From: Thermodesulfobacterium sp. TA1
GTDB lineage: Bacteria > Desulfobacterota > Thermodesulfobacteria > Thermodesulfobacteriales > Thermodesulfobacteriaceae
Length of the DNA: 64,000 bases
Assembly: GCF_008630935.1 (NCBI RefSeq)
Contig: NZ_CP043908.1
Location: 806,001 to 870,000 of the forward strand
Direction of reading: 5' to 3'
Below, piece by piece: positions 5,103 to 12,780 of this stretch (position 1 is its first letter; each line of letters starts with the position of its first letter). The translations under genes and the position numbers were made by a program. The notes beneath the pieces were generated by a model, which was not told the origin of the DNA, did not search any database, and saw only the letters and a list, made by a program, of their open reading frames with translations.

Positions 5103-5176
5103 CTACTTTTGCCTATAGGGCTTGCAAGTCTGTCAAATTGATTATAAAATACTTTTTAAAATTCTACAAAAGGTAA

Positions 5177-6494
<1,318 letters not shown>

Positions 6495-7702: not shown

Positions 7703-9342
7703 AGATAAAGATCGCTAAAAAGGCTGGTTTTTGCATGGGAGTAAGACGGGCGGTTAATTTGGTGTTAAAAGCTTTAAACGAGGAAAAGTCTAACATTTAC
7801 ACCTATGGTCCCTTGATACATAATCCCCAAACGTTGAAATTACTTGATACCTTTGGAGTAAAAGTGTTAAAAGACCTCAATAACGACCTTCCACAAGGGG
7901 TGGTGGTTATACGTGCCCACGGAGTTCCACCCAAAGATTATAAAATTTTATCACAAAAACATAAAGTAATAGACGGAACCTGCCCAAGGGTGCTTAAGGT
8001 CCAAGCGTTGGCTAAAAAGGCAGTTTCTGAAGGAAAAGAAGTGGTTATCATAGGAGATAAAGACCATGCAGAGGTTAAAGGTATTCTTGGTTACTGCGAA
8101 GGTAAGGGATATGTGATTTCTTCTGAAGAAGACTTAACGACCCTCCCTCCACTTAAAGAATATGTTATCCTTTCTCAAACCACCCAGGATGAAAGGCTTT
8201 TTAACCTTCTTGCTAAAAAGATTATCTCTCTTTATCCCAACGGAGAAATTATTAATACCATCTGTAATGCTACAGAGGTAAGGCAAAACGAGGTAAGAAA
8301 TCTTTGTAAAGATTGCTCAGCTATAGTGGTAATAGGCGGAAAGTTTAGTGCAAACACCAACCGTTTAGCAGAGGTAGCTAAAAAAGAAAATAAACAGGTA
8401 TTTTTGGTTGAAAGTCCTGAGGAATTACCTTGGGAAGAGATAAAAAAACATAAAATAATAGGTATTACTGCAGGAGCCTCAACTCCTAACTGGTTGATAA
8501 ACGAGGTTGTAGATTATATAAAAGCAAAGACTTCTTTTTTTTATAACTTATTGAAAATCTTATGTTTTACTTCAACCACTTTATCTTTAACCTTTCTTAC
8601 GGTTTTTCTCGGTATTTTGGCAGCGATTAAACATCCGTTTAATCTTCAATTTCTTTATCTTGCCTTGTTTGTTTGGAGTTTTACTACTTTAAGATATCTT
8701 TTAAACCAAAGACTTTTAAAGGATACCTTTAGGTTTTTCCTCCCGATAAAACATAAATTTCTTTCTCAACACGAGAAAGGTCTTTTAGGGTTTATGGTGT
8801 TAGCAGGAATTTTGGCTTTAGTTGCAGGGATTTTATATAAATCGAGAATACTAAGCTTAGCCATAGTCCTTTTGCTTATAGACCTTCTTACCTATCGTAC
8901 TTCATTAACCTTTCTCTGGGAGGCTCTTTTCTTATCGTCCCTTACTCTTTATCTATATCCTTTTTGGAGTTTAAATTTTGGACTTATTTTTTTGCAAGGC
9001 CTTTTGGTGATTTTTTATTTAAAGCTTTATTTAGAAATAGTCTATTTTCAGACAGATGGGTTTTTACCCAAAAACTTTTTTCTTTCCACCCTTTCTTATG
9101 AACCTAAAAAAATTTTTAAGGTTTTAAACTTGATCGTTTTAGTTGGGGTTTTACTTACCTTTTTCTCGGCTTTTTTAGACCTTAAGTTTGGGTTGTTTTT
9201 TATCGTGTGGGGAGTAGCCTATTTTCTTAGTTTAGTGGTCAAAAAAAGACCCCTTGGTCAGGTGGTTTATCTGGAGATTTTGGTAACTTTGGTTTCTTTG
9301 ATTTTTTTAGTTTGTGGATTTTTGATAAGAGGATTAGGTTAG
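7699..9342 (+). CDS. ispH: IspH (HMBPP reductase) fused to a C-terminal polytopic membrane domain
   Basis: Residues 1 to about 285 are a complete IspH/LytB, the [4Fe-4S] enzyme making IPP and DMAPP from HMBPP in the last MEP-pathway step. The three cluster cysteines are in KAGFCMGVRRAV (Cys12), DGTCPRVLKV and TICNATEVRQNEV. Residues 290-547 form about eight or nine hydrophobic helices, absent from ordinary IspH (about 300 aa). The spacing and polar patches (IKHKFLSQHEKGLLGF, and LEIVYFQTDGFLPKNFFLST) resemble a UbiA prenyltransferase fold that has lost its Asp-rich motifs; this likeness is my inference. One frame spans both parts with no stop, so the fusion is real in this sequence. Confidence 0.92.
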   Translation: MKIKIAKKAGFCMGVRRAVNLVLKALNEEKSNIYTYGPLIHNPQTLKLLDTFGVKVLKDLNNDLPQGVVVIRAHGVPPKDYKILSQKHKVIDGTCPRVLKVQALAKKAVSEGKEVVIIGDKDHAEVKGILGYCEGKGYVISSEEDLTTLPPLKEYVILSQTTQDERLFNLLAKKIISLYPNGEIINTICNATEVRQNEVRNLCKDCSAIVVIGGKFSANTNRLAEVAKKENKQVFLVESPEELPWEEIKKHKIIGITAGASTPNWLINEVVDYIKAKTSFFYNLLKILCFTSTTLSLTFLTVFLGILAAIKHPFNLQFLYLALFVWSFTTLRYLLNQRLLKDTFRFFLPIKHKFLSQHEKGLLGFMVLAGILALVAGILYKSRILSLAIVLLLIDLLTYRTSLTFLWEALFLSSLTLYLYPFWSLNFGLIFLQGLLVIFYLKLYLEIVYFQTDGFLPKNFFLSTLSYEPKKIFKVLNLIVLVGVLLTFFSAFLDLKFGLFFIVWGVAYFLSLVVKKRPLGQVVYLEILVTLVSLIFLVCGFLIRGLG

Positions 9343-10710: not shown

Positions 10711-11025
10711 AGTTTAAAACGTTAATATAAAAATTTTTTTTGTCAATATCAGCCTTTTCGGTTATTAAAAAAAAGTACTATTTTAAAATGTTATATTGGT
10801 AAAAATTATCCTCCAGAAAAAATTACTTTAATTTATATTAACTATCAAGCGGTATGCCATCTTTTTTAAGTCGGCTAAGGTTTTAATAGCCCTACCAAAC
10901 AACTTATCACGTGTTGAAAATTAAAGTCTTTGTCCCTCTTTAATTTGTCTGTTTTTGTTTTATTATACAAAGCAAAATGGAGTGAAAACTTACGAGTAAA
11001 AACTGATAAAGGGGGGGGGAGAAGT
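10711..11025. other. divergent intergenic region, 315 bp
   Basis: AT-rich gap between the CBS-GGDEF gene (minus) and the flavin reductase-like gene (plus). It should carry both promoters, but I see no strong TTGACA/TATAAT pair. I recognise no small gene or riboswitch. The only striking sequence is a run of nine G at 11011-11019 inside the ribosome binding site of the downstream gene. Confidence 0.5.
11011..11025 (+). promoter_or_regulatory. ribosome binding site with a G9 homopolymer
   Basis: The segment before the ATG at 11026 reads nine G followed by AGAAGT. The purine run is the Shine-Dalgarno element for the flavin reductase-like gene and fixes this start over an upstream in-frame start at 10930. 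A G9 tract is unusual in such AT-rich DNA and could vary in length by slippage. Confidence 0.7.
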
Positions 11026-11544
11026 ATGAAGTTTTATAGGGCTCTTCATCCAAGACCGGCTGTAATCATAGGGAGCGGGAATTTTAAAGAAGGAGAAGTA
11101 AATCTTATGGCTTGTTCCTGGATAACCCCTATTTCGGTTGAACCCCCTACCATCGGTTTTGCCTGTGCAGATAAACATTATACAAGAGAGCTTATCGATA
11201 AACATCAAGCTTTTTCGGTAATTTTAACAGAGGATTATGGGCTTATCTTTAAGGTAGGGTCTACTAAAGGTAGAGAAACCGATAAAATCAAAGCTTTTAA
11301 CATCAAAATCAAGCCGAGTCCTAATCTTAACCTACCGTTATTAGAGGAAGGTATGGCCATGTTTGAATGTAAAGTAAGAGAAAGATTGCTTGTAGGAGAC
11401 CATCTGTTTTATGTAGGAGAGGTGTTATATTGGGAGGCCAAAGACTTTGAAGAAGAGGGATTTAAAGAATTTTGGAAATTACCTTTGCACAGGTCAGGCA
11501 AGTCCTTTGTGTTTTGTGCAAAACAGGTTTTTATAGCAGAATAA
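11026..11544 (+). CDS. flavin reductase-like FMN-binding protein
   Basis: Split-barrel FMN protein of the DIM6/NTAB flavin reductase family, 172 aa. The family pattern is clear: PRPAVIIGSGN, then VNLMACSWITPISVEPPTIG, and FECKVRERLLVGDHLFYVGE towards the end. Members bind FMN and act as flavin reductases or electron carriers; substrate is not predictable. Start chosen at the ATG preceded by a G-rich Shine-Dalgarno. The next gene, 20 bp downstream, is a small [2Fe-2S]-type protein, so the pair could form a small redox module (inference). Confidence 0.85.
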   Translation: MKFYRALHPRPAVIIGSGNFKEGEVNLMACSWITPISVEPPTIGFACADKHYTRELIDKHQAFSVILTEDYGLIFKVGSTKGRETDKIKAFNIKIKPSPNLNLPLLEEGMAMFECKVRERLLVGDHLFYVGEVLYWEAKDFEEEGFKEFWKLPLHRSGKSFVFCAKQVFIAE

Positions 11545-11564
11545 AAAATTGAGAGAGGGAGAAG

Positions 11565-11783
11565 ATGTCAGAATTAGTGTGCTATTGTTTTGGTTTTTCT
11601 AAAGAAGACATCCTAAGAGATGTAAAAGAAAATCAAGGTCGGTCTGAGATTTTAGGGTTTATCGTAGATAAAAAAAGGAAAGGTCAATGCGAATGCCATA
11701 TTAGAAACCCCAAAGGCACCTGATGTTTAGGGGAGGTCCACAGGATTGTGGAAGAAGCTAAAAAGTCTTTAGGAATTTCTTAA
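11565..11783 (+). CDS. candidate selenoprotein: CopZ/BFD-like [2Fe-2S]-binding protein with in-frame TGA (Sec53)
   Basis: The ATG at 11565 follows a good Shine-Dalgarno (GAGAGAGGGAGAAG). The frame runs 52 codons to a TGA at 11721-11723, then 19 more codons to a TAA at 11781. Read through as Sec, the 72-aa product has CYC (6-8), CEC (42-44) and NPKGT-Sec-CLGEV (48-58). Related [2Fe-2S] proteins carry CxC, CxC and Cys-Cys in NPKGxCCLG, so the TGA sits exactly where a ligand Cys is expected. A hairpin follows at the distance used by bacterial SECIS elements. The sequence after the TGA stays protein-like and family-like, arguing against a true stop. The last 26 bp overlap the end of lpxD. Alternative: a truncated 52-residue pseudogene. 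Confidence 0.8.
11737..11752 (+). promoter_or_regulatory. SECIS-like hairpin downstream of the in-frame TGA
   Basis: TCCACA (11737-11742) pairs perfectly with TGTGGA (11747-11752) around a GGAT loop. Thirteen bases separate the TGA from the stem, so the first loop G lies 20 nt after the TGA. Bacterial SECIS elements are small stem-loops just after the UGA with G at the start of the apical loop, which fits. The hairpin lies inside the coding sequence, as is usual in bacteria. Confidence 0.72.
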
Positions 11784-12780
11784 GTTCTTTGTAAATTTCA
11801 GGAAGTTTCTCAAAGATTACCACCGCTCTTCTCCAAACATTAGCCTTGATAGCCGGAATACCTGCTACCTCAGCGTTAGCTGGGACTTCTCCTACCACTC
11901 CTGATTTGGCTGCGACCTTAGCCCCTTTGCCTATTTTTGCTGAAGGGGCTATGCCTACTTGTCCGGCTATCATAACAAAGTCTTCTAAAACAGCGCTTCC
12001 TCCTATGGCAGTATGAGAAACCAAGATATTTTGTTTCCCAACCCTAACGTTATGCCCTACCTGAACAGAGTTGTCTATTTTTGTTCCTTCTCCTATCACT
12101 GTTGCCCCAAAAACAGCCCTATCAACCGTAGAGTTGGCACCTATTTCTACCTCATCTTCTATCAAAACCCCTCCAAAGTGATAAATTTTAACGTTTCTAT
12201 AACCTTCTTCTAATGGTTCTTGAGCAAAGCCAAATCCATCTGCCCCTATTACAACCCCTGCATGGATTATACAGTTTTTCCCTATCTTAGAATAGGGATA
12301 GATTACAGCATTAGGGTAAACCACCGTATTTTCTCCTATCTCACAAAAAGCTCCTACAAACACCCCTGGATAAAGCACCGCTCCTTTTCTGATTTTAGCC
12401 CCTGACTGTATGTATACATTAGGGTAGATAGCCACCGGTTCTTCTATTTCTACACCTTCCTCTATAAAAGCTTTATCACTTATACCCCATTTAACCGGGG
12501 GTTCTTTTTTGAAAAGATATGTAATTTTGGCAAAGGCTAACCTTACATCTTTAACCTCTATCACGGCTTTCCCTTCAAGATAAGAGGCAAAACCTAATGG
12601 ACAAAGCACAGCCTTAGCTTTAGATTCTTTAGCCTGAGAAACCCGTTTTAAAGAATCGATAAAAACCATTTCGTCTTCTTGGGCAAGAGGGAGGGCATTT
12701 ATTCCTTTTATTTCTAAGTCTTCTCCTATAAGCTTTCCGTTTATTAGTTGGGCAATAAAAGAAAGTTTGTAGGTTTTCAA
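11758..12780 (-). CDS. lpxD: UDP-3-O-acylglucosamine N-acyltransferase
   Basis: Third enzyme of lipid A synthesis; adds the N-linked hydroxyacyl chain from ACP to UDP-3-O-acylglucosamine. The N-terminal uridine-binding domain (to about 100) is followed by a left-handed beta-helix of hexapeptide repeats (about 105-290). The catalytic-His region VQVGHNVRVGKQNILVSHTA and the DGFGFA segment are present. A C-terminal helix ends the 340-aa protein. Its 3' end overlaps the convergent candidate selenoprotein by 26 bp. With kdsA, kdsC and lptC it supports an LPS outer membrane. Confidence 0.95.
   Translation of the reverse strand: MKTYKLSFIAQLINGKLIGEDLEIKGINALPLAQEDEMVFIDSLKRVSQAKESKAKAVLCPLGFASYLEGKAVIEVKDVRLAFAKITYLFKKEPPVKWGISDKAFIEEGVEIEEPVAIYPNVYIQSGAKIRKGAVLYPGVFVGAFCEIGENTVVYPNAVIYPYSKIGKNCIIHAGVVIGADGFGFAQEPLEEGYRNVKIYHFGGVLIEDEVEIGANSTVDRAVFGATVIGEGTKIDNSVQVGHNVRVGKQNILVSHTAIGGSAVLEDFVMIAGQVGIAPSAKIGKGAKVAAKSGVVGEVPANAEVAGIPAIKANVWRRAVVIFEKLPEIYKELKKFLKTF

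Follow-up and report, generated by a model that had tools for sequence, protein, structure and literature searches.

Two forms of a '(2Fe-2S)-binding protein (copper chaperone CopZ family)' are listed as predicted selenoprotein families, form 1 with the motif GxUC and form 2 with the motif CU (PMC9312934, PMC13188914); PMC2398784, to which form 1 is traced, leaves the family unnamed in its main text. Form 2 is represented by Csac_0668 and the model CopZ_Nterm_CU (NF045877), which has the same domain as the protein described here but is longer and includes an N-terminal module, with Sec second in the Cys-Cys (CC) pair as judged from the name and the listed motif. For the Cys type, the model is CopZ_Nterm_CC (NF047645), to which we assign PDB 2HU9; this entry, with the molecule name mercuric transport protein in the PDB, we take to be the N-terminal domain of A. 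fulgidus CopZ. The gene studied here lies in a 64,000-nucleotide stretch of the Thermodesulfobacterium sp. TA1 chromosome (NZ_CP043908.1, positions 806,001 to 870,000; hereafter the window). Its predicted product shares with form 1 (cd10141) the CopZ-like Fer2_BFD domain, Sec in the first position of the CC pair and the motif G-T-U-C (in NPKGTUC), and the gene fits form 1 of the CopZ-family selenoproteins, so that the family would be one already known. The comparison with form 1 (reference sequence WP_245779778.1) covered motif and domain; three congeners of our strain have KTUC. We did not find it stated in the literature surveyed that the Sec form is short and stand-alone, that it is associated with ars operons, or how prevalent it is.

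The reading frame occupies positions 11565–11783 on the plus strand, starting with ATG at 11565, running for 52 codons to a TGA (11721–11723) and continuing through 19 sense codons to a TAA (11781–11783); re-reading of the frame from the sequence gave the same coordinates and codon count as the preliminary description. With the TGA translated as selenocysteine (U53), the product would be a stand-alone CopZ-like [2Fe-2S] domain of 72 aa (MSELVCYCFGFSKEDILRDVKENQGRSEILGFIVDKKRKGQCECHIRNPKGTUCLGEVHRIVEEAKKSLGIS), which standard annotation would cut at residue 52. Upstream of the ATG, a purine-rich stretch resembling a Shine-Dalgarno sequence (GGGAG; 11555–11562, plus strand) was recognized by eye. 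The 3′ end of the gene overlaps over 26 bases (11758–11783) with that of a convergent ORF on the minus strand (11758–12780), judged LpxD-like by eye, which also constrains these last 26 bases; the substitutions after the TGA in four congeners were too few and, given this overlap, their counts were accorded no weight.

Profile searches agreed with the kinship to CopZ/BFD-like [2Fe-2S] proteins that had been proposed for this frame. The protein matched NF047645 with E = 2.9e-16 over profile positions 86–137, the C-terminal third, with 60 bits against a whole-protein cut-off of 100 bits, and NF045877 with E = 1.4e-4 over positions 99–158, with 21.9 bits against a cut-off of 190 bits. The match to Fer2_BFD (PF04324), with which it has the N-terminal CxC and the overall plan in common, covered residues 4–23 only and, at 15.1 bits, fell below the gathering score of 26. 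A ten-row profile found 2HU9 with E = 3.4e-4. The AlphaFold model was confident (pLDDT 94), and a Foldseek search with it against the PDB gave no significant match, 2HU9 included; the family assignment therefore rests on sequence profiles. Compared with NF047645, the protein has the same CxC ... C ... NPxG[RT]CC layout but lacks the N-terminal module (profile positions 1–85), has Sec in place of Cys and possesses an additional Cys in a second CxC (C42); the Sec forms in general are short stand-alone domains without the N-terminal module found in Cys forms. The C-terminal HMA (MxCxxC) copper-binding domain of full-length CopZ was likewise absent from the 72 residues.

Homologues were found in 7 of 60 relatives, all seven with the TGA. 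When 395 genomes of the phylum were searched with a profile, about 57 clear matches, or about 1 in 7 sampled genomes, had one TGA inside, at exactly the same codon, while two matches of comparable strength (in genomes G095 and G128) and weaker Cys relatives were without it, Cys homologues being rarer in the phylum than TGA homologues. All 57 genomes with a TGA homologue had selB above cut-off, compared with a background of 353 of 395. The 55 distinct homologue sequences that were extracted comprised 42 of the window's subfamily, seven of a second Sec subgroup and six with C-C. The pair was U-C in 42/42 members of the window's subfamily and C-C in the six Cys homologues, the TGA falling at a Cys position with coding conserved on both sides of it. 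The second Sec subgroup (L080–L086) had the pattern ...TGACTxxRC...NPRGRUCSREI..., with the same U-C pair and a different Cys spacing. A genuine stop at the TGA, yielding a 52-residue truncated domain or marking a decaying pseudogene, is what standard gene callers would assume in ending the frame at 11721, but the recurrence of the same TGA in about 57 genomes, the continuation UCL[x]DV conserved past it in 42 members, a SECIS element kept beyond codon constraint and a complete Sec machinery all argue against it; we regard this explanation as very improbable, and conservation already contradicts it.

The stem-loop pointed out in the preliminary description, a perfect 6-bp stem with a GGAT loop at a suitable distance from the TGA, was borne out. 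It is a candidate bSECIS apical stem-loop (11737–11752, plus strand; GGAU in the RNA) consisting of TCCACA (11737–11742), GGAT (11743–11746) and TGTGGA (11747–11752). The published bSECIS model has a loop of 3–9 nt, a stem of 4–16 bp, a G in the first two loop positions, a spacing of 16–37 nt from the UGA and an MFE of ≤ -7.5 (PMC13188914). The hairpin agrees with it on every count, having a loop of 4 nt with G first, a stem of 6 bp, a loop 19 nt past the TGA, and an MFE of -7.9 kcal/mol for a 36-nt stretch or -10.4 kcal/mol for the 45-nt RNA 11721–11765 (z = -2.90 relative to dinucleotide shuffles). Because the stem also encodes VRRVVD-like residues, each homologous sequence was recoded synonymously (1000 recodings per sequence, with codon weights approximated from local GC content). 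The 42 TGA homologues kept a mean of 5.62 of the six stem pairs against 3.51 expected (mean folding z = -2.11), whereas the six Cys homologues kept 2.67 against 2.65 expected (mean z = -0.49), these per-sequence tests being non-independent as the sequences are related. Pairs were exchanged across homologues as G-C/C-G, G-U/A-U/G-C and C-G/U-A. The excess in TGA forms and its lack in Cys forms indicate that the structure tracks the TGA, not the protein sequence. In most members of the second Sec subgroup, the predicted SECIS loop was located farther out, about 26–27 nt past the TGA.

The genome, a single contig of 1.83 Mb, was found to contain all four genes of the selenocysteine pathway: selC, encoding a tRNA-Sec (80.3 bits; anticodon TCA according to ARAGORN), selA (612 bits), selB (399 bits) and selD (343 bits). 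The selD locus (L028, G000:C1:1092579-1093511) holds an in-frame TGA, and SelD of this genome is therefore probably itself a selenoprotein. If the TGA of the present gene were decoded by suppression as a standard residue such as Trp or Cys, readthrough alone would likewise conserve the downstream frame; yet tRNA-Sec with anticodon TCA, selA, selB and selD are all present, the stem-loop goes with TGA and not with Cys, and the homologues carry Cys, not Trp, at this site, so that we consider such suppression extremely improbable. Since the TGA is conserved in about 57 genomes, each with selB, and is matched by Cys homologues, a SECIS excess restricted to TGA forms and a full sel machinery, the gene appears to encode a selenoprotein with Sec at the TGA.

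As to the cluster, six Cys/Sec positions are available in the protein for the four ligands that a [2Fe-2S] cluster requires. The CYC motif (C6, Y7 and C8; 11580–11588, plus strand), with the first two putative ligands, aligned to C75/C77 of 2HU9, and C44 (11694–11696, plus strand), the third putative ligand, which is invariant in 55/55 homologues, aligned to C109. The extra residue C42 (11688–11690, plus strand) is probably not an obligate ligand, since one Sec homologue has Ser in its place and 2HU9 has no counterpart of it; it is also missing in other homologue groups. With C42 dispensable, the putative ligands would be C6, C8, C44 and either U53 or C54, all of these positions being conserved in the alignment of homologues. 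By profile alignment, U53 and C54 (11724–11726, plus strand) correspond to C118 and C119 of 2HU9; both are invariant and either could serve as the fourth ligand. In the structure of A. fulgidus CopZ, the cluster ligand would be C119, second in the pair and equivalent to C54; if so, Sec53 would sit beside the cluster and not on it, and the sister form with the motif CU would carry Sec at the ligand position.

The preliminary description had Sec replacing a ligand cysteine, which is unsupported as stated, with U53 in the first position of the CC pair, six Cys/Sec positions for four ligands and C54 equally possible; the remainder of that interpretation, i.e. a selenoprotein related to CopZ/BFD with Sec at a Cys position, a SECIS element and the sel genes in the genome, held. 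A genetically encoded selenolate as a direct ligand of a biological [2Fe-2S] cluster, conserved across a phylum, is in our estimate unlikely. A fuller version of this idea is that Sec53 ligates the cluster, that the exchange of S for Se tunes its potential or stability, and that the protein is an electron carrier, conveying electrons within the genus from an adjacent flavoprotein to an acceptor. It draws on the position of U53 in the CC pair, which, with C6, C8 and C44 as the other ligands, must provide the fourth, and on a co-directional flavin reductase gene 20 nt upstream in four species. However, C54 is just as invariant and could be the ligand, the existence in NCBIfam of a sister form named CU (NF045877) implies that Sec is not bound to one ligand position, in the A. 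fulgidus CopZ structure the second Cys would be the ligand, and the flavin reductase is present in sibling species without the selenoprotein. We hold this version to be doubtful.

The upstream gene (11026–11544, plus strand) encodes a flavin-reductase-like protein (PF01613, E = 2.2e-22); its stop codon lies 20 nt before the selenoprotein start, the order is kept in four species of the genus, and the two genes form a probable two-gene operon. Directly 5′ of its start codon (ATG 11026), a run of nine G at 11011–11019 overlaps the probable ribosome-binding site and might be a switch prone to slippage or a spot sensitive to sequencing. Congeners without the selenoprotein gene still have selB and an orthologue-like flavin reductase, which is followed by a different ORF, indicating that the coupling to flavin reductase is lineage-specific. 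In the window, the other neighbours are housekeeping genes, with no ars, mer or cop gene at the locus. Co-occurrence with ArsP within the genus was rejected as a discriminator, as most members have ArsP with or without the selenoprotein.

Of 53 Sec loci, 20 had genes of the arsP, arsR, arsC or acr3 type within 6 kb, against 0 of 20 control regions, a contrast somewhat inflated by the choice of neighbour families from the target loci themselves; the other 33 Sec loci were without ars-type neighbours. The recurrent neighbours of the subfamily were ArsP/SaoE-type permeases, ArsR regulators, thioredoxin-type ArsC and Acr3-like transporters, with mutually consistent annotations, and the order arsR-(arsC)-arsP-selenoprotein was observed in several lineages. 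In the second Sec subgroup, six of seven loci were near ars-type genes. Among the Cys forms, one CopZ-like domain formed an in-frame fusion with an entire mercury(II) reductase (MerA, 568 bits; L060, G095:C1:955000-968000), one gene adjoined merA (L019) and one was about 2 kb from a gene for a CopA-like ATPase (L061). Two further observations concern the surroundings of these loci: in L019, the protein encoded at 5161–5886, directly 3′ of the Cys-form gene and merA, matched NF041115, a UxxU metal-binding (seleno)protein model, with 76 bits (cut-off 95), and in L103, near a Sec-CopZ locus, positions 8492–9037 encode a rhodanese-like protein with kinship to NF041203 and TsoB, both (seleno)protein families. 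Judged from gene context, soft metal(loid) handling is most likely the role of the family.

On balance, we favor, with moderate confidence, a reading in which these features are joined, i.e. a selenoprotein with Sec53, built on a free-standing CopZ-type [2Fe-2S] domain and having a soft-metal(loid) function. From the conservation, the SECIS element and the machinery, it is expected that SelB would bind the hairpin at 11737–11752 and the UGA at 11721 would be read as Sec53. The alignment to the CopZ N-terminal domain suggests that one [2Fe-2S] cluster is probably bound via C6, C8 and C44, with the U53-C54 pair supplying the fourth ligand. The spare residue of this pair, with C42 nearby, would then provide a highly nucleophilic site beside the cluster for binding soft metal(loid)s or for redox chemistry, and the family would most likely assist in the binding, reduction or transfer of soft metal(loid)s such as As(III), Hg or Cu on their way to export or detoxification. 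Within the genus, the adjacent flavin-reductase-like protein might conceivably donate electrons to the selenoprotein.

These results point to a functionally uncharacterised selenoprotein family that would be linked to the handling of arsenic and heavy metals by anaerobes. With its 72 residues, the protein would also lend itself, as a short natural example, to the question of whether Sec can serve as a ligand of an iron-sulfur cluster.
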